Part shown: positions 1,174-49,085 of the stretch, piece by piece
How positions within the stretch are numbered: position 1 is the first letter of the stretch
How the letters are laid out: the number at the start of each line of letters is the position of its first letter
From: Neolewinella agarilytica
Lineage (GTDB): Bacteria > Bacteroidota > Bacteroidia > Chitinophagales > Saprospiraceae
NCBI RefSeq assembly: GCF_900110645.1
Contig: NZ_FOFB01000032.1
Location: 1-64,000 of the forward strand
DNA length: 64,000 nucleotides
Direction: 5' to 3'
Notes under the pieces: generated by a model
The model's database searches: none
The model's input: the letters and a program-made list of their open reading frames with translations, nothing else
Told to the model about the DNA's origin: nothing
Translations under genes and position numbers: made by a program

Positions 1174-2391
1174 CTATATATTATTTCCAACCAAACCCCC
1201 TACCAACCCCTCCACTTCTTCCACTGTATTAAACCCATGCAAACAAATCCGCAACCGCTCCTCGCCCACGGCCACCGTTGGGGAGCGAATGCCTTTGACG
1301 AGCAGGCCTGCCTCCCGGCAGGCGGCCTCGGCCGCCATCACCCGTTCGTTGCCGGGCAGGTGGAGGATTTGTATCGGGCCGTCGGCCTCCGATAACAGCT
1401 GAGCCAGGCCCGCTTCGGACATCCCCTGGCGGAACTGCTGGATGCGTTCGTTGAGCAAAGCCAGTCGCTCCGCGTGCAACGATGTCATCCGCTCGTACGC
1501 CTGGGCAATGCCTTCCCATTGAGCGGGCGCCGGGCCGGTGGTGTAGATGAAGGGGCGGCAGGTATTGACGAGGTACTCCCGCAAAGCAAGCGAGCCCAGC
1601 ACGGCAGCGCCGTGGGCGCCGAAGGCCTTGCCGTAGGTAATAACGGTAGCAAAAACCTGCTCCTGCAGGCCCAACTCCGCCACCAGGCCGGCACCACCCT
1701 CCCCTTCGATGCCACCAGAATGGGCTTCATCAACTATCAGGTGGGCGCCATGCTGCCGGCACAGCGTCGCCATGTCGGCCAGCGGCGCCAGGTCGCCGTC
1801 CATGCTGAAGCGGCCTTCGGTGAGGACGAAGACTTGTCCGTCGGGCCGGCCGCCTGTCGCCAGCAATTCCCCCAGCGTACGCAGGTCGTTGTGCGGAAAG
1901 CGGATGGCCTTCGCCATCCCCAGCCGGATACCGTCGCGGCAGCTGGCGTGCATGAGCTCGTCGTAATAGATCGTGTCGGTGCGCTTTAGGACGGCGGAGA
2001 GCAGCCCCAGATTCGCCGTATAGCCGGAGTTGAAGACCAGGGCGGCGGGATGGCCGTGGTAATCAGCGATCATTTGCTCGACGGCGTGGTATTCGTCAGC
2101 ATCTCCCGAAATGGACCTTGAGCCGGTGGCACCGGACGGGTTCAAGGACCTCGAAGCGTCCCGGAGCGAAGCGGAGGGACCTTCGAGCGTCCGGGTGGCC
2201 ATCTCAGGGTACTGCGGCGCTCGGGTGGCCATCTCGGACGCTCGAAGGTCCCTACCGGGACGCTTCGAGGTCCTGGCCAGCCCCAGGTAATCATTCGACC
2301 AAAAGTCTACCCCATCGACCGAGCCCGCCAGCTGGCGGTAATTGCCCGCTGACCGAATTTTATCCAGCCTGTCCGCAAGAAATTTCTTCAT
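1174..2391 (-). CDS. BioF/KBL-like pyridoxal-phosphate enzyme with an in-frame palindromic insert
   Basis: A 405-residue fold-type I PLP enzyme of the 8-amino-7-oxononanoate synthase / alpha-oxoamine synthase family, which condenses an amino acid with an acyl-CoA or acyl-ACP. Visible landmarks are NDYLGLA near residue 35, GSRSISGD near 90, FNSGYTAN near 119, VDEAHSGG (cofactor-binding Asp and His) and TYGKAFGAHGA, whose Lys is the likely Schiff-base residue. Residues about 41-88, between NDYLGLA and GSRSISGD, are not family sequence. They are encoded by two palindromic repeat copies in opposite orientation and include RTLEGPSASLRDASRSL (67-83). The exact substrate is unknown; no other biotin genes are nearby. 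Confidence 0.85.
   Translation of the reverse strand: MKKFLADRLDKIRSAGNYRQLAGSVDGVDFWSNDYLGLARTSKRPGRDLRASEMATRAPQYPEMATRTLEGPSASLRDASRSLNPSGATGSRSISGDADEYHAVEQMIADYHGHPAALVFNSGYTANLGLLSAVLKRTDTIYYDELMHASCRDGIRLGMAKAIRFPHNDLRTLGELLATGGRPDGQVFVLTEGRFSMDGDLAPLADMATLCRQHGAHLIVDEAHSGGIEGEGGAGLVAELGLQEQVFATVITYGKAFGAHGAAVLGSLALREYLVNTCRPFIYTTGPAPAQWEGIAQAYERMTSLHAERLALLNERIQQFRQGMSEAGLAQLLSEADGPIQILHLPGNERVMAAEAACREAGLLVKGIRSPTVAVGEERLRICLHGFNTVEEVEGLVGGLVGNNI
2146..2192 (-). repeat. 47-bp palindromic element inside bioF-like gene
   Basis: Two similar 16-base arms, GGACCTCGAAGCGTCC and GGACCTTCGAGCGTCC, flank a short centre. Read on the gene strand it is identical over 47 bases to the copy at 3654-3700 and is translated in the same frame, giving RTLEGPSASLRDASRSL. 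Confidence 0.85.
2236..2273 (+). repeat. Second, shorter copy of the palindromic element, inverted
   Basis: A 38-base copy of the same element with a shorter centre, in the opposite orientation to the copy at 2146-2192. The segment between the two contains a direct repeat (TCGGGTGGCCATCTC type, near 2193 and 2221). The whole insert spans about 2128-2271 of the gene and keeps the reading frame. Confidence 0.75.
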
Positions 2392-2439
2392 CTCTATCCA
2401 TTAAAACCGAAGCCCTGAAAGCCACGCAGCGGCGTCTAA

Positions 2440-2460
2440 AGAAAACGCCCAGCGTTTTCT
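2440..2460 (-). terminator. Possible terminator overlapping the rluA-like stop codon
   Basis: A perfect 9-bp stem (AGAAAACGC / GCGTTTTCT) with a 3-base loop lies at the very end of the pseudouridine synthase gene on the minus strand. The downstream T tract is weak. Confidence 0.4.
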
Positions 2461-3163
2461 ACCACTCCGTCATCTCCGCAAACAGCTGCCACAATTGATC
2501 AATTTCGGGGATCGGTGCCTCGATCTTTACGGCTTCCTTCGTCACCGGATGCTGGAACTCCAGCTTGCGGGCGTGCAGGTTGATGTTGCCGTCCTGATTA
2601 CGCAGGCGGGAACCGTACTTCAGGTCGCCGTGAATCGGTGTTTTGAGCTGATCGGCCAGCTGTACCCGGATCTGGTGCGGCCGACCGGTTTCGGGCTTCA
2701 CTTCCAGCAATATGTTGGTCCCTACGCGACCCAGCAGGCGGTAATCGAGCTTTGCCATTTTAGCCCCTTTATGGCGGTTAGAATCAGCTTTGGGTACGAT
2801 TTTACTACGGTTCTTACTCGTGTCTTTGTAGATGTAGCCCTTCAGGCTTCCTTCAATCGGATCGGGCTGTTCTGTCGTAATGGCCCAGTAGGTTTTGGTC
2901 ACTTTCCGGTCGCGGAAAAGCTCCGTCATCCGCTTCAGGGCTTTACTGGTACGGGCGAAAATGATGACGCCGCTCACCGGCCGGTCGAGGCGATGGATGG
3001 AGCCCAGAAAAACGTCGCCCGGCTTGTTGTAGCGATGTTTGATGTAGGCTTTGACCCAGTCCATGACGGTCCGGTCACCGGTTTCATCCCCCTGACTCAG
3101 CAGGCCGGCGGGTTTGTTGACGGCGATAAGGTGATTGTCTTCGAAAAGGACTTGGAGATGCAT
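2459..3163 (-). CDS. RluA-family RNA pseudouridine synthase
   Basis: Converts uridine to pseudouridine in rRNA or tRNA. The start chosen is MHLQVLFEDN; longer reading runs into the heptamer repeats of the leader. The catalytic aspartate is in the family motif HRLD (GSIHRLDRPVSG, about residue 60 onward). LLEVKPETGRPHQIRVQLA is the second conserved block (KTGRxHQIR type), and the C-terminus has the usual HARKLEFQHPVT. At 234 residues it is a single-domain form without an S4 domain. Which base it modifies cannot be told. A TGACCTTTG promoter-like box lies near 3227-3240, with the heptamers in the leader. Confidence 0.9.
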   Translation of the reverse strand: MHLQVLFEDNHLIAVNKPAGLLSQGDETGDRTVMDWVKAYIKHRYNKPGDVFLGSIHRLDRPVSGVIIFARTSKALKRMTELFRDRKVTKTYWAITTEQPDPIEGSLKGYIYKDTSKNRSKIVPKADSNRHKGAKMAKLDYRLLGRVGTNILLEVKPETGRPHQIRVQLADQLKTPIHGDLKYGSRLRNQDGNINLHARKLEFQHPVTKEAVKIEAPIPEIDQLWQLFAEMTEW

Positions 3164-3171
3164 GGGAAAGG

Positions 3172-3206
3172 GATTCTTGATTCTCGATTCTTGATTCTCG
3201 ATTTTG
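3172..3206 (-). repeat. Heptamer array GATTCTT/GATTCTC, five units
   Basis: Five consecutive 7-bp units of the form GATTYTB lie 8 bases upstream of the rluA-like start codon, in its leader. The unit is the reverse complement (rotated) of the array at 3273-3308, so the two arrays bracket the divergent intergenic space as inverted copies. Confidence 0.8.
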
Positions 3207-3272
3207 GATTTGACTACCGCACGAGAAGGCACAAAGGTCAACATTTAAAACTATGTTTTCTCACTGGGGTTT

Positions 3273-3308
3273 AATCAAGAATCAAGAATCGCCAATCAAG
3301 AATCATGA
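3273..3308 (+). repeat. Heptamer array AATCAAG, containing the mqnD start codon
   Basis: Units AATCAAG, AATCAAG, AATCGCC, AATCAAG, AATCATG follow each other without gaps. The ATG of mqnD is the end of the last unit. Copy-number change here would alter leader length but not the reading frame. Confidence 0.8.
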
Positions 3309-4252
3309 ATCTTTCTCTAGGTTACAGCCCCTGCCCCAACGACACCTTCATTTTTGACGCGCTCGTCCACGGCCGCATCGACACCGAAGGGCTGGAATTT
3401 GACGTCCGCCTGGGCGATGTCGAGGAGCTGAATCAGCTGGCGCTTGCGGGGGAACTGGACGTTACCAAGCTGAGCTATCACGCCTTCGGCTACCTGACCG
3501 GGACCTACGCTTTGCTGAACGCCGGCAGTGCATTGGGGCGGGGCGTTGGGCCATTGTTGGTGACGGCGGATGCGAATTTGGCGCGGACGCTGGTGCAGGG
3601 GGAGGTTCGAGGAGCTGAGGGAGGTCGGACGCTCGAAAATTTTGCGCCAGACCGGACGCTCGAAGGTCCCTCCGCTTCGCTCCGGGACGCTTCGAGGTCC
3701 CTGGCAGTAGCTATTCCTGGTAAGCTGACCACGGCGAACTACCTGCTGGGGCTTGCCTATCCCGAACTGACGGACAAAACCGAGGTATTGTTCTCCGACA
3801 TCGAAGAGCGGGTGCTCTCCGGCGAGTTTGCCGCCGGGCTGCTCATTCACGAAAACCGTTTTACTTACCACGAGCGCGGCCTGCATAAGATCGCCGACCT
3901 CGGTGAATTTTGGGAAGGAAGCACCGGCCTCCCTATCCCGCTGGGCGGGATCGTGATCAAACGCTCCCTGCCGGAGGAGGTGCAGCAGACCTTCGATCGG
4001 GTGCTCGCCCGCTCCGTCCAGTATGCCTTTGACAACCCCGCCGCTTCAGCGGACTACGTCGCCGCCAACGCCCAGGAGATGGACCCCAAGGTGATGCGGC
4101 AGCACATCGCCCTTTACGTCAACGACTATTCGCTCAACCTCGGCCCGCAGGGCCGGGGGGCGGTGCGGGCTTTCCTGAAGCAAGGCCGGGAGCGGGGGGT
4201 GATTCCTCTTACTCCGGAGGTGTTTGTACCGCCGACTTCAGTCGGCGGATGA
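3305..4252 (+). CDS. mqnD: 1,4-dihydroxy-6-naphthoate synthase MqnD, with in-frame insert
   Basis: Enzyme of the futalosine route to menaquinone; it cleaves cyclic dehypoxanthine futalosine to 1,4-dihydroxy-6-naphthoate. The N-terminus LGYSPCPNDTFIFDALVHG and the blocks DVTKLSYHAFGYL, VAIPGKLTTANYLL, GLLIHENRFTY and GLPIPLGGIVIKR are characteristic of the family. At 315 residues it is about 30 longer than usual. Residues about 100-133 are an insertion in the loop before the VAIPG strand, formed mainly by the palindromic element (RTLEGPSASLRDASRSL at 117-133). The last residues (VPPTSVGG) and the stop codon come from another palindromic repeat. No other mqn genes are in the window. Confidence 0.92.
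   Translation: MNLSLGYSPCPNDTFIFDALVHGRIDTEGLEFDVRLGDVEELNQLALAGELDVTKLSYHAFGYLTGTYALLNAGSALGRGVGPLLVTADANLARTLVQGEVRGAEGGRTLENFAPDRTLEGPSASLRDASRSLAVAIPGKLTTANYLLGLAYPELTDKTEVLFSDIEERVLSGEFAAGLLIHENRFTYHERGLHKIADLGEFWEGSTGLPIPLGGIVIKRSLPEEVQQTFDRVLARSVQYAFDNPAASADYVAANAQEMDPKVMRQHIALYVNDYSLNLGPQGRGAVRAFLKQGRERGVIPLTPEVFVPPTSVGG
3654..3700 (+). repeat. 47-bp palindromic element inside mqnD
   Basis: Identical over 47 bases to the copy in the bioF-like gene at 2146-2192 and translated in the same frame. A partial half-element (GGACGCTCGAA, from 3628) precedes it, so the total insert is about 100 bases. Confidence 0.85.
4226..4252. repeat. CCGCCGAC-TTCA-GTCGGCGG palindrome supplying the mqnD stop
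   Basis: A perfect 8-bp stem with a 4-base loop (4229-4248). Related palindromes occur at 36634, 37375, 41635 and 45027. Here it encodes the last residues of MqnD and its TGA. Confidence 0.7.
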
Positions 4253-8809: not shown

Positions 8810-8855
8810 AGCGGTAAGATACCCGATAGGAGGGATTTGTGGCGGTGGCTACTTT

Positions 8856-8925
8856 GTAGACAGTAGACGGTAGACAGTAGACGGTAGAGGGTAGAGGGTA
8901 GACGGTAGAGGGTAGAGGGTAGACG
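8856..8925. repeat. Heptamer array GTAGACR/GTAGAGG, ten units
   Basis: Ten consecutive 7-bp units beginning GTAGA, upstream of the NUDIX gene and downstream of the protease gene. The same unit type recurs at 48997-49085. Confidence 0.85.
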
Positions 8926-9028
8926 GTAAAATGCTCCAAAAATGCGAATTACGGGCTAAATGCCCTCGGTGTAGTTTTACTGAGCGTTTTCACCCCGTAA
9001 TTCGCGTAAACTCACTGTTTACCGTCTA

Positions 9029-38722: not shown

Positions 38723-41491
38723 CTATTTAGCCAGGTCAAACTTCACGCCCAGATCAAAACGGACATTGTAGTATTCTGCCTGAAAAGTGCGTTCGCTGCT
38801 TCCCTGGAAGTAGCGCAGCGGCTGGTTCAACAGATTATTGGCATTACCATAGAGTGTAAAGCGGGGGCTTAGACTGTAATTGAAATTAAAGTCGAGGTAA
38901 GTAACCGCATTATAGTTGACATCCGTAAAGGCTTCGTCACCTACCTCATCGATGAAGGAAGAGGCGTAGTTTAAAGATAGGCGGGTCGTTAAATTACCCG
39001 TATCGTAGGCAAGGGAAGCATTCAGGGTATGCTTTGGTGCGCCAGGCAACGAGAGGTCTTCGTTTTCGCGGCCTTCGAAGTTGAACTCCGTGACCTTTGA
39101 GTCAATGAAAGTATAGTTGAAGTAAAGACCAAAATTACGCAGGGCCGGAGCGATAAAGTCCAGCTGTCGCTGAAAGGCAACTTCGAGCCCTAAGAGATTC
39201 GCATTTCCGCCATTGATGGGCTGGGTAAAGCTGCCGTACTCCGTGCCCTCGAAGGTAAAATCATCCAGGCTCTGGTTTACGATGAAATCACTGATATCCT
39301 TAAAGAAAACACCACCAGACACAAGACCGATATTACCAAAGTAGTGCTCTACCATCAGGTCCAGGTTAAGGCTGCGGGTAGGGTCAATATCGGGGTTACC
39401 AATACTGAGGTCTTCCCCGTCTTCTATTTGACGATAAGGTACCAGGTCGAAGTAGTTAGGCCGCGCCAACGTGTTGGTGTACGCAAAGCGGAGAATGGTA
39501 TTCTTTTTCAGGTTGTACTTCAGATGTAAGCCGGGCAGCAGGTTGGTATAGTCCGAGGTAGCCTTCCCGGTTGCGGTCAGTGTTTCCTCTTCATCGTCAT
39601 AGCGGAAGCCGGAGTACTCCAGGCTTGTGCGCTCCAGGCGCAGACCAGCTACGGCCAGCAGCTTAGGGCCTAGTTGTTGCTCCAGCATAGCGTAGGCACC
39701 AATGATGTTTTCGTCAGCATCGAAGTTGCCCGCCAGCTCACTCAGGGCTTGTTCGCCTTCGAAGTCCGCACCCCTCAGGTTCAAATCTCCTACGTATTCC
39801 CGGCTGATGAAAGAGCCGGCCTGATAGTCGCCAGCCAGGAAGTTGTCCCGGCTCTGGTCCTCCAGATTATTGAGTCCCTGATTGAATACATTGTCTCCAA
39901 CGGGTTCGTACTCGTAGAAATCATTATCGCGAACTTTGTTCTTCGTCCGCAAGCGAGCACCGAATTTGAGGGCATTGCGGCTTGGTCCGGTAGTGGCTAG
40001 GGGCAGCTCAAAATCAAGCCGGCCGTTCACATCCACATCTTCGGTAAACTGCGTTTCTTCGGTAATTTCACTGAGCTCCCATGCAGAAGAAGGGTTTTGA
40101 AAAGCGGATTCCGTAGCATTAATCAGTGGCTCTTCGGGATTGTCAAAATCAACGTTTACCGGCACTACATCATCCGTGGCAATTTCGTAGTACCGCTCAT
40201 TGGGGCGGTCTTCAGAAGCACGGGCGTAGTTGGCACTCCAGGTAGTTTTCAGCTTACCGAAAAGGTGCTCGCCGCTAAGGCTGAAGTTCATCATTTTCTG
40301 ATCTTCCAGACGGGCGTACTTTTCGTCTTCGGTGCCAGACTTCGTCTGCCGCTCTAACTCAGCCACCCATTGGCCGTCCTCCTCTTCAATATCTTTATAA
40401 ACTGCCCGGTAGCGGTTTTCCCAATCGTTGCGATGGTTGTAGATGCCCCGGAAGAAAATGGTGTTTTTGGGATCAAATTTATAGTCAAGGCTCAGGGAAT
40501 AACTCTGGCGAATACGCTGCAGGTAGTATTGGCGAATCTGAATTTCTTCGGGATAGTTGTTCTCGCCTTCGTCAAAGCGATCATTGTCGTTTTCGTCGTC
40601 ATAGGTCCATTCGGCTTCCACATTATCGGAGCCCAACTGGTTATTGAAGTAAGAGCCGCTGAAGATGACACCAAGTTTGCCATCAGCGTACCGATCCCCA
40701 TAGATAAGCCCGCCGTTAAAAGTAGGTTGCTCGGCCAGCAGGTTGTAGCCCCCACCTAAGGTTCCGCTAATCCGACGTTCGTAGGGCGCTGCGCGGGTAA
40801 CGAGGTTGGCGGCTCCACCAATGGCGTCGGCGTCCATATCAGGCGTAACGGCTTTGCTAACCTCTACGGCCTGGACCATGTCAGATGGGATGAGGTCCAG
40901 CTGGATGGAGCGTACTTCCGCCTCCGCAGAAGGAATACGCTCTCCGTTGATCATGACCGAGCTTAGCTGCGGAGCCGTACCCCTGATGTTCCCGAAGCGC
41001 GCTTCTCCCTGATCATACTGAACGTTGATACCGGGAACCCGCTTAAGGGCATCCCCGATGTTCTGGTCGGGGAAGCGTCCGATCTGATCAGCGGCAATCA
41101 CGTTGGTGATATTTACGGCCGCCTGCTGAGTACTCAGGGCGCGGGCCTGCCCGCGCAGTTGGCTCACAATGGCCACCTCGGCCAGCAAAACGCCCGGCTT
41201 CATCAGCACATCCATTTCCGTCGTTTCACCAGCCGTGATGGTGATAGGCTGATCGAAATCCGTAAAACCAATATAGGTTACTTTCAGGGCGTGCTCTCCT
41301 GTGGGAAGGCTCCGCACGTTGAAAAAGCCATTGGCATCCGCAACAGTAATCGCTTCGGTATTGACAATAACCGTGGCTCCCGCCAGGGGTAGATTACTTT
41401 CATCAACAACCCGTCCGGTAAGCGTGCCCGTTTGGGCGCAGACGCAGGTGCAAAGAAGGGTTAAAAAGCAAAGGAGTAGTAAGTTTCTCAT
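38723..41491 (-). CDS. TonB-dependent receptor with CarboxypepD_reg domain (phytase-linked)
   Basis: A 922-residue outer membrane transporter. Signal peptide (about 1-20, ending CVCAQ); carboxypeptidase-regulatory beta-sandwich (GTLTGRVVDESNLPLAGATVIV, about 21-105); plug (about 125-230, RFPDQNIGDALKRVPGINVQ, DMDADAIGGAANLVTRA); then a large beta-barrel ending VRFDLGVKFDLAK. The plug pattern is that of the TIGR01782-like receptors for polymers or siderophores. It sits directly upstream of the phytase gene, so uptake of phytate or its products is a plausible role. Its promoter shares a motif with the T9SS gene at 45180-48260. Confidence 0.9.
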   Translation of the reverse strand: MRNLLLLCFLTLLCTCVCAQTGTLTGRVVDESNLPLAGATVIVNTEAITVADANGFFNVRSLPTGEHALKVTYIGFTDFDQPITITAGETTEMDVLMKPGVLLAEVAIVSQLRGQARALSTQQAAVNITNVIAADQIGRFPDQNIGDALKRVPGINVQYDQGEARFGNIRGTAPQLSSVMINGERIPSAEAEVRSIQLDLIPSDMVQAVEVSKAVTPDMDADAIGGAANLVTRAAPYERRISGTLGGGYNLLAEQPTFNGGLIYGDRYADGKLGVIFSGSYFNNQLGSDNVEAEWTYDDENDNDRFDEGENNYPEEIQIRQYYLQRIRQSYSLSLDYKFDPKNTIFFRGIYNHRNDWENRYRAVYKDIEEEDGQWVAELERQTKSGTEDEKYARLEDQKMMNFSLSGEHLFGKLKTTWSANYARASEDRPNERYYEIATDDVVPVNVDFDNPEEPLINATESAFQNPSSAWELSEITEETQFTEDVDVNGRLDFELPLATTGPSRNALKFGARLRTKNKVRDNDFYEYEPVGDNVFNQGLNNLEDQSRDNFLAGDYQAGSFISREYVGDLNLRGADFEGEQALSELAGNFDADENIIGAYAMLEQQLGPKLLAVAGLRLERTSLEYSGFRYDDEEETLTATGKATSDYTNLLPGLHLKYNLKKNTILRFAYTNTLARPNYFDLVPYRQIEDGEDLSIGNPDIDPTRSLNLDLMVEHYFGNIGLVSGGVFFKDISDFIVNQSLDDFTFEGTEYGSFTQPINGGNANLLGLEVAFQRQLDFIAPALRNFGLYFNYTFIDSKVTEFNFEGRENEDLSLPGAPKHTLNASLAYDTGNLTTRLSLNYASSFIDEVGDEAFTDVNYNAVTYLDFNFNYSLSPRFTLYGNANNLLNQPLRYFQGSSERTFQAEYYNVRFDLGVKFDLAK

Positions 41492-41634: not shown

Positions 41635-41658
41635 TACCGCCGACTAAAGTCGGCGGTA
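41635..41658. repeat. TACCGCCGAC-TAAA-GTCGGCGGTA palindrome
   Basis: Perfect 10-bp stem with a 4-base loop, same family as 4226-4252. The remaining space 41492-41734 contains nothing else recognised. Confidence 0.7.
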
Positions 41659-41734: not shown

Positions 41735-42037
41735 GGACCTTTGAGCGTCCGGCAGGACCTCGAAGCGTCCGGGCCTGGCAAGAGCCTCGAGCGTCCAAGC
41801 GTGGCACGACCTTCGAGCGTCCGGCAGGACCTCGAAGCGTCCGGGCCTGGCAAGAGCTTCGAAGCATCCGAACGTGGCAAGAGCGTCCGAGCGTGGCACG
41901 ACCTTCGAGCGTCCGGCAGGACCTCGAAGCGTCCGGGCCTGGCAAGAGCATCGAATCGTCCGAGCCCGGCAGAGCGTCCGAGCCCCGGCTGCGCGGACGC
42001 TGGCAGGTCCCGCAATACTGCGGGACGCAGCAAGGTC
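41735..42037. repeat. Array of GACCTTCGAGCGTCC palindromic modules
   Basis: Three units start at about 41736, 41808 and 41900. Each carries GACCTTCGAGCGTCC followed by GGACCTCGAAGCGTCC and a spacer GGCCTGGCAAGAGC. The two modules are the arms of the element inserted in the bioF-like gene and mqnD. The array ends 3 bases from the next receptor stop codon and is largely free of stop codons in several frames. Confidence 0.8.
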
Positions 42038-42040
42038 CGC

Positions 42041-48996: not shown

Positions 48997-49085
48997 GTAG
49001 ACTGTAGACTGTAGACTGTAGACTGTAGACTGTAGACTGTAGACTGTAGACTGTAGACTGTAGACTGTAGACTGTAGACTGTAGA
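48997..49085. repeat. Heptamer array GTAGACT, about 12.7 perfect units
   Basis: Uninterrupted GTAGACT repeats, the longest and purest array in the window, which suggests recent expansion. Same unit type as 8856-8925. It lies between the DUF2147 stop and the next gene. Confidence 0.95.

Follow-up and report, generated by a model that had tools for sequence, protein, structure and literature searches.

A palindromic repeat family of Neolewinella agarilytica with in-frame copies inside conserved enzymes

How does one palindromic sequence come to be translated, in the same frame, inside two unrelated enzymes? The question is raised by a 64,000-nucleotide stretch of the Neolewinella agarilytica genome, referred to here as the window, in which a bioF-like gene and mqnD lie close together.

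The repeat shared by bioF and mqnD

A sequence-only reading of the window had claimed that a 47-bp sequence is identical in the two genes and yields one peptide in both. A search of the window bears this out exactly: the 47-mer is found at 2146-2192 (minus strand) and 3654-3700 (plus strand), and all of its frames are open. Comparison of the two coding strands extends the identity to a maximal exact match of 49 bp (2146-2194 and 3652-3700), which has the same codon phase in both genes. Both reading frames run uninterrupted over the repeat, and both encode RTLEGPSASLRDASRSL. Two matches to the 47-mer at up to 3 mismatches were obtained in 0 of 100 shuffles. The two near-palindromic 16-bp arms that had been described were recovered as GGACGCTCGAAGGTCC and GGACGCTTCGAGGTCC, and a core with these arms is predicted to fold into a single bulged hairpin (-26.4 kcal/mol). 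The relevant features of the window are as follows.

1174-2391, minus strand: bioF-like gene containing two core hairpins; family of PLP-dependent aminotransferases (ORF; Pfam PF00155, E 1.9e-42)
2146-2194, minus strand: core hairpin of the 47-mer subvariant, arms 2177-2192 and 2146-2161, encodes RTLEGPSASLRDASRS (49-bp match to mqnD)
2192-2235, no strand: spacer separating the bioF hairpins; contains CGGGTGGCCATCTC twice in direct repeat, 14 bp each (2192-2205 and 2222-2235)
2236-2273, plus strand: second core hairpin of bioF, loop CTACCG, opposite orientation, encodes RTSKRPGRDLRAS
3305-4252, plus strand: mqnD, menaquinone biosynthesis, host gene (Pfam PF02621, E 5.8e-72)
3581-3597, plus strand: copy of the family B motif, in the mqnD loop with the insert, encodes ARTLVQ
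3627-3637, plus strand: partial arm GGACGCTCGAA in mqnD
3652-3700, plus strand: core hairpin of the 47-mer subvariant, encodes RTLEGPSASLRDASRS (49-bp match to bioF)
41735-42038, minus strand: intergenic array of family C, arms in tandem

The top PDB matches of the bioF-like product are 8-amino-7-oxononanoate synthases, and the mqnD product matches PDB 2czl both by sequence and by fold. The 14-bp direct repeat in the bioF spacer is a local duplication, and the partial arm in mqnD is a remnant or local copy. Four of the features go beyond the earlier reading: the second core in bioF, which is read in another frame, the direct repeat, the partial arm, and the intergenic array, a third location of the repeat in the window.

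Alignments with congeners place both inserts between conserved blocks, in agreement with the loop position proposed for them, and in the three genes aligned (mqnD, bioF and murG) the insertion site is a hypervariable loop. At the murG site the alignment indicates a replacement at about equal length, not a clean insertion. The structural model of MqnD retains the fold (pLDDT 88.9), with the lowest confidence at residues 102-118; the insert (117-133) partly overlaps this stretch, and the model has a helix at 124-131.

Family C across the genome

The core, which consists of two near-palindromic 16-bp arms with a variable loop between them, defines a repeat family that we call family C. At up to 2 mismatches the genome gives 152 counts for one arm and 115 for the other (one site can be counted for both arms), against 4 and 8 for reversed controls. 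At up to 1 mismatch there are 148 places, which group into 79 clusters; at up to 2 mismatches there are 86 clusters in the 886,554 bases scanned, and these are the places referred to below. The arm is present in 12 of 20 congeners; elsewhere in the order 2 of 39 genomes have it. No publication dealing with a repeat of this kind in Lewinella or Neolewinella was listed in the literature searches.

Some copies are flanked by inverted ends (AGGGCAATCGCAAGCTC, by eye one base longer), which at up to 4 mismatches are found on both sides at 21 of the 86 places, on one side at 18 and on neither at 47. The 21 places with both ends constitute a long form of 73-210 bp. Target-site duplications were identified at 16 of these (flank match of at least 8 out of 9), with 5 below this threshold, compared to a mean of 1.2 and a maximum of 5 when the flanks were matched with shuffled partners. 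Judged by its sequence features, the long form is a MITE. End-like sites number 82 in the genome, against 23 for the reversed control. Three inward-facing pairs of them, 2.6-4.6 kb apart, were considered as a possible autonomous element with family C ends, and the scan gave this candidate no support: none of the 9 proteins scanned between them is a transposase, the span of one pair (C24) being covered partly.

Copies of family C are depleted in genes. Only 8 of the 86 places are genic, compared to 320 of 600 random placements, and the other 78 are intergenic. The genic count comprises seven places from the gene test together with bioF, which the test missed because too little sequence precedes the insert, and which was added on the basis of its alignment and Pfam match; the DAG-kinase of the related genome G009 was likewise counted as genic from its alignment. 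The element thus occurs in genes other than the original pair, as the sequence-only reading would expect. All 8 host genes have Pfam matches, and all 8 genic places lack inverted ends, with cores 37-53 bp long and no target duplication discernible by eye. Of the copies between genes, 46 lie in tandem, 16 in divergent and 12 in convergent arrangements, with 4 of unknown arrangement.

The number of open frames does not distinguish the genic cores, since 4-6 frames are open in 48 of 54 non-genic cores as well. Nor do open frames account for the exclusion of the long form from genes, apart from the effect of its length: long forms have a mean of 1.9 open frames, against 1.8 for random 130-mers.

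Copies without inverted ends are the most common kind (47 of 86) and the genome has five Y1_Tnp genes, which raises the question of whether core-only copies are mobile in their own right, as REP-like units moved by a Y1 (RAYT) transposase and separate from the MITE form. We consider this unlikely. An arm or end was found at none of the five Y1_Tnp loci (3.2-3.3 kb each), so that these genes were rejected as drivers of family C, and a constant tetranucleotide adjoining the core was not seen by eye.

Frames, motif B and the role of the translated peptide

A second possibility is that the hairpin works in genes at the level of DNA or mRNA, for example as an RNase III site, in pausing, or as a recombination or uptake signal, with its translation incidental. 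Three cores are predicted to form strong hairpins (-23 to -33 kcal/mol), and at 5 of the 8 genic places a copy of motif B is found no more than 100 bp away, compared to 5.4% of random places. However, the non-genic copies in this genome have no such link (6 of 78 within 100 bp, against the same 5.4%), genes are avoided and not favoured, and the intergenic copies occur in every arrangement. Such a role therefore seems improbable.

Slightly less probable still is selection for the peptide itself, in which the 47-mer subvariant would spread among genes with RTLEGPSASLRDASRS as a useful tag, for instance for localisation or interaction. In its favour, the subvariant has 4 copies in 21 genomes of the genus, all 4 of them genic and all in one frame. 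For three hosts the chance of this is roughly 1 in 36, calculated post hoc, and simple tolerance does not predict it. In addition, two species retain the copy in the DAG-kinase gene, which in one of them has become nine tandem units, a lineage-specific expansion. Against this, other host genes read the same DNA in other frames, giving DARRS, DLEASRS and TSKRP, and in another congener (G004) the core found in the corresponding mqnD loop is in a different frame, encoding VDAQRSLRDASRS. At least 4 of the 6 frames and both orientations are in use among the genic copies, and therefore the frame is not fixed: the constant frame suspected earlier holds for the 47-mer subvariant but fails for family C as a whole. 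A search of six frames, allowing up to 5 substitutions, did not find the peptide at the 80 loci that surround MqnD homologues in named genomes, as had been anticipated for distant homologues; for BioF the search covered the genus.

Comparison with the closest relative, G009, also bears on this. Among five host genes, the insert is common to both genomes in metH, the FAD-oxidoreductase and the DAG-kinase, whereas bioF and mqnD of G009 have none. The dN/dS ratio against G009 is 0.04-0.20 in all five genes compared, and by annotation the host genes share no common pathway. That the repeat is a product of chance or of assembly can practically be dismissed, even for a genome in 74 contigs, given a match of 49 bp where the longest chance repeat expected in the window is about 15 bp, and the recurrence of three insertions in a second genome.

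We return to the reading that we regard as probable, namely that family C is a new palindromic element resembling RPE and Correia elements, and that its copies in genes have survived because permissive loops tolerate them. On this reading family C is a palindromic, non-autonomous repeat belonging to Lewinella-like bacteria. The long form is a MITE that inserted with target duplications of about 10 bp, as the flanking sequences show, and the inner hairpin of two 16-bp arms and loop also stands alone. Core hairpins may land in, or be copied into, hypervariable surface loops, and would survive where they bring no stop in the host frame and change the net length by a multiple of three. Cores elsewhere in genes would be removed by selection, as the genic depletion and the conserved cores of the host proteins suggest, and the translated peptide is presumably a tolerated by-product. 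The copies in bioF and mqnD are identical, lie 1.5 kb apart and have opposite orientations; one of them was probably copied locally into the other gene, and this would account for the common frame with no need for the peptide to have a function.

Related repeats and implications

The parallel drawn earlier with the Rickettsia palindromic element (RPE) is partly upheld. According to the available sections of the cited papers, RPEs are palindromic, partly intergenic, and in frame within genes of unrelated conserved proteins (PMC10969869, PMC2229807). Family C is likewise intergenic and in frame in 8 unrelated host genes, a likeness of arrangement. It differs in belonging to another phylum, Bacteroidota, in being mainly intergenic (a genic share of 8 of 86, against nearly half in what is reported for RPE), in having a long MITE form, and in using several frames. 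Its genic cores are also shorter, at 37-53 bp, than the 105-146 bp given for RPEs in the part of that account available (PMC2229807), although RPE-4 and RPE-6 are described, in the available text, as smaller and as corresponding to short REPs (PMC3733652).

The Correia/NEMIS elements of Neisseria are described, in the portion consulted, as having a longer form that is intergenic, being barred from genes by stops, and a shorter form found in genes (PMC2229807). The long form of family C is similarly outside genes, and a short form occurs in them, but here the long form is just longer, with open frames as in random DNA, and the short form is the inner hairpin minus the ends. GTAG- and CGTC-REPs are, in the sections available, short hairpins, mostly intergenic with some genic, the CGTC type occurring also in Bacteroidetes and having an unpaired CGTC tag, a stem of 8-9 bp, a loop of 4-5 bases and a CCA tail (PMC3733652). 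Family C resembles them as a short, mostly intergenic hairpin with some genic copies. However, neither an unpaired CGTC tag nor a CCA tail was seen in the folds of three cores, in which the arms pair over about 15 bp with bulges and GTCC lies within the stem, as against the 8-9 bp described there, and no RAYT is linked to the family. The long form is like other bacterial MITEs in being short and non-coding, with inverted ends and target-site duplications, but 65 of the 86 places do not show both ends, and 47, including the 8 genic ones, have none.

Motif B, of which the genome has 549 exact copies, occurs throughout the genus. The aligned hypervariable loops of mqnD, bioF and murG often hold it; it is also present at the mqnD insert loop of congeners; several species retain it at the same bioF and mqnD loops, and two at the same metH loop. 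In G004, 6 of 15 family C places lie within 60 bp of it, as a plain count. Its close pairs face each other in 11 of 11 cases; as a transposon inverted end it was rejected, since the sequences enclosed by these pairs are unrelated and inspection by eye showed no target duplication. Motif B resembles an uptake sequence, and may be a putative uptake signal. To our knowledge, signals of this kind, if motif B is one, are known only from other phyla.

The loop peptides could then be by-products of selection on DNA, which keeps motif B, with C hairpins entering beside it or replacing it; we advance this only tentatively, and think it rather doubtful. If true, the loops of these enzymes would be partly written by selection on DNA and not by protein function. 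Motif B is a more novel lead than family C. Family C itself is a further case, from Bacteroidota, of palindromic repeats contributing peptide to conserved enzymes. With loops that have and lack the insert in a near relative, another frame in a second species and a ninefold expansion, tolerance, as opposed to peptide function, becomes directly testable.

Core copies of family C in genes

The core of the palindromic family C has an arm-loop-arm layout, and its 47-mer subvariant is predicted to fold as a bulged hairpin (-26.4 kcal/mol). The sequence-only reading had claimed that this 47-mer is identical in bioF and mqnD, and the match is indeed exact at both places.

2146-2192, minus strand: 47-mer in bioF
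3654-3700, plus strand: 47-mer in mqnD
3581-3597: copy of motif B, a second repeated motif, in the mqnD loop

The longest exact match between the two genes extends over 49 bp, at 2146-2194 in bioF and 3652-3700 in mqnD, where the longest chance repeat would be about 15 bp. Both open reading frames traverse it in identical codon phase. Pfam and sequence matches in the PDB identify the hosts as a BioF-like enzyme and MqnD. There is an additional C arm fragment in mqnD, while bioF carries a second C hairpin, separated from the first by a 14-bp direct repeat. Because this second hairpin is in the opposite orientation and is translated as RTSKRPGRDLRAS, the claim of a common frame is true of the 47-mer pair, and not of C copies in general.

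The N. agarilytica genome (6.22 Mb in 74 contigs) contains 152 and 115 occurrences of the C arms at up to 2 mismatches, compared with 4 and 8 for reversed controls. At up to 1 mismatch, 148 arm places group into 79 clusters, all of which fall in the window or the other stretches of this genome that were analysed. At up to 2 mismatches there are at least 86 clusters, counted in 886,554 bases, with weaker clusters elsewhere in the genome lying outside this count. The commonest loops among 64 same-strand cores are TTTCA (15), TTCCA (10), CGCAATACTGCG (10) and CTCCG (6); the loop of the bioF and mqnD copies, CTCCGCTTCGCTCCG, occurs twice, with one variant.

A cluster was taken as genic if one open frame with coding signal continues on either side of the repeat. 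Seven of the 86 clusters pass, and bioF, which fails with just 42 codons before the insert, was added on the basis of its alignment and Pfam match, giving 8/86. The same test marked 320 of 600 random placements, and thus genes are strongly avoided by C. The element does nevertheless occur in genes besides bioF and mqnD, and four of the six frames are in use, so that the frame of the insert is not constant.

Genic C hosts in N. agarilytica and the frames read through the repeat
bioF: forward TLEGPS; reverse TSKRP
mqnD: forward TLEGPS
metH: forward DARRS/DAQRS
PMT_2-type membrane protein: reverse DLEASRS
murG: forward DARRS/DAQRS
YegS-type diacylglycerol kinase: forward TLEGPS; reverse DLEASRS
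FAD-dependent oxidoreductase: forward TLEGPS; reverse TSKRP
OmpA/PD40 protein (one arm only): forward DARRS/DAQRS

The 47-mer has no stop in any of its six frames, and 4-6 frames are open in all ten genic cores. Open frames allow genic cores, but alone do not account for which copies are genic, since non-genic cores are equally open (48/54) and the long forms of C resemble random DNA (19/21 with at most three open frames; mean 1.9, against 1.8 for random 130-mers). All ten genic cores have lengths that are not multiples of three, and therefore there must have been gain or loss of adjoining bases. Presumably only the in-frame outcomes of core entry into genes would persist.

Another palindrome, ACCGCCGACT(T/A)(C/A)AGTCGGCGG, encodes the final residues of mqnD (PPTSVGG) at window 4228-4248, and recurs between predicted genes at 41636-41656.

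Insertion loops, relatives and the shared frame

Alignments bear out the proposed loop placement of the bioF and mqnD inserts and put the murG insert in a loop too; at all three sites congeners differ from one another in both length and sequence. The other hosts were aligned with G009, the closest relative, at most. The MqnD site has 5 residues in the Thermus enzyme 2czl, which is also the best fold match of the MqnD model, and 41 in the N. agarilytica protein. The AlphaFold model (36 sequences) has a pLDDT of 88.9, with a minimum at 102-118 and middling values at 121-130; the insert is residues 117-133, with a short helix modelled at 124-131. In murG, the C stretch takes the place of a linker that has roughly the same length in G014, and longer insertions are found at this linker in G004 (L291, inverted-repeat-like by eye) and G002 (L307).

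G009 is closest by identity (MqnD 87%, BioF 82%), its genome is 55% complete, and the comparison covers five of the eight hosts, murG not being found there. Its mqnD and bioF loops are without C, and it has C at the orthologous places in metH, the oxidoreductase and the kinase. The kinase holds nine tandem units of the type KRTLEDPSGSN in N. agarilytica (C48:41240-41597, L267) and one palindrome unit in G009. The five hosts are under purifying selection, with dN/dS of 0.106 (mqnD), 0.198 (bioF), 0.037 (metH, partial gene), 0.157 (oxidoreductase) and 0.160 (kinase), computed on stop-to-stop frames that include a few pre-start codons. In the mqnD loop of G004 a C core is read in a different frame, as VDAQRSLRDASRS, and we read this as an independent event.

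The arm (up to 1 mismatch) is present in 12 of 20 congeners; of 39 genomes from elsewhere in the order, 2 have it, in a single copy each. Forty stretches from five of the 12 arm-bearing congeners (sites in G002 and G009 being sampled partly) hold 45 clusters, three of them genic by test and the G009 kinase a fourth by alignment. The nearest named MqnD matches, at 57-62% identity, include Lewinella and Neolewinella. The 80 loci that surround MqnD homologues in named genomes contain no C arms and no copy of the peptide.

Across 21 genomes of the genus, the 36-bp middle of the 47-mer (up to 3 mismatches) has four copies: three in N. agarilytica, in bioF, mqnD and the kinase, and one in the kinase of G009. 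All four are genic and read RTLEGPSA-LRDASRS. The simplest account of the frame shared by bioF and mqnD is the copying of one genic 47-mer, perhaps that of the kinase, which would have entered both genes, 1.5 kb apart. The rival explanation is that the peptide is useful in itself; three hosts would share one of six frames by chance about 1 time in 36, a post hoc estimate.

The long form of C

In 21 of the 86 clusters the core is enclosed in a long form of 73-210 bp (median 129) with inverted ends AGGGCAATCGCAAGCTC, matched at up to 4 mismatches; a single end is present in 18 and none in 47. All eight genic places are without these ends. The flanks match at 8/9 or better in 16 of the 21 long forms, the other five being under threshold, against a mean of 1.2 and maximum of 5 with shuffled partners; the target-site duplication is about 10 bp by eye. 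Judged from the sequence, the flank duplications are the signature of insertion by a putative transposase. There are 82 end-like sites (reversed control 23), including three inward-facing pairs 2.6-4.6 kb apart, and no transposase was found in nine proteins scanned between these pairs (the C24 span covered partly).

Other repeats include a CRISPR-like GTCTTAATCCTTCTTGTGATGGATGAGGCTCCGGAGG repeat located approximately in the first 400 kb of contig C27 (overlapping 14-mers, 56-60 copies each), and short tandem GTAGA-rich and CTGTAGA units at about 8855-8928 and 48997-49084 of the window.

Motif B and known intragenic repeats

Motif B (GGCGCGGACGCAGGTGCAAGG plus a soft, purine-rich tail) is frequent in the same loops as C. 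Intact or altered, it is found in the bioF loop of G009, G002, G004, G005 and G014, and in the mqnD loop of N. agarilytica, G009, G002, G004, G007 and G014. It lies within 100 bp of C at 5/8 genic and 6/78 non-genic places, and at 5.4% of random places. GCGCNGNCGCAGGTGCA has 549 exact copies in N. agarilytica (289 on one strand and 260 on the other; reversed control 1). Of 20 congeners, 19 contain it, with as many as 609 copies, and outside the genus it occurs once, in 1/39 genomes of the order. At up to 2 mismatches, 37 of 90 copies in 464 kb lie within predicted genes although 81% of that sequence is coding, and thus motif B, like C, is under-represented in genes. Genic copies spread over five of six strand/frame classes, and all 11 close pairs are convergent. 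Antisense, the motif forms the end of signal-peptide-like N-termini (..LLCTCVSAQ) in several predicted genes (window 41436-41452; C27:160595, 185544, 275410).

In copy number, even distribution over the strands, confinement to the genus and convergence of close pairs, motif B resembles uptake sequences. By this analogy it looks like a DNA uptake-type signal, which is a lead and not a result. ComEC is found in N. agarilytica, but as it is also found in 10/14 control genomes, its presence says little about such a role.

According to the papers cited, Rickettsia palindromic elements (RPEs) insert in frame in genes (PMC10969869; PMC2229807), REPs occur within genes in several species, with CGTC REPs in Bacteroidetes (PMC3733652), and the open-frame 107-bp form of the Neisseria Correia element is intragenic while the 155-bp form, which has stops, is not, with one exception (PMC2229807). 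No repeat of the C type was found for Lewinella or Neolewinella in the literature searched, which was mostly open-access. C is therefore new, though of a kind already known, and the family provides a clear comparative setting for a palindromic repeat in genes.
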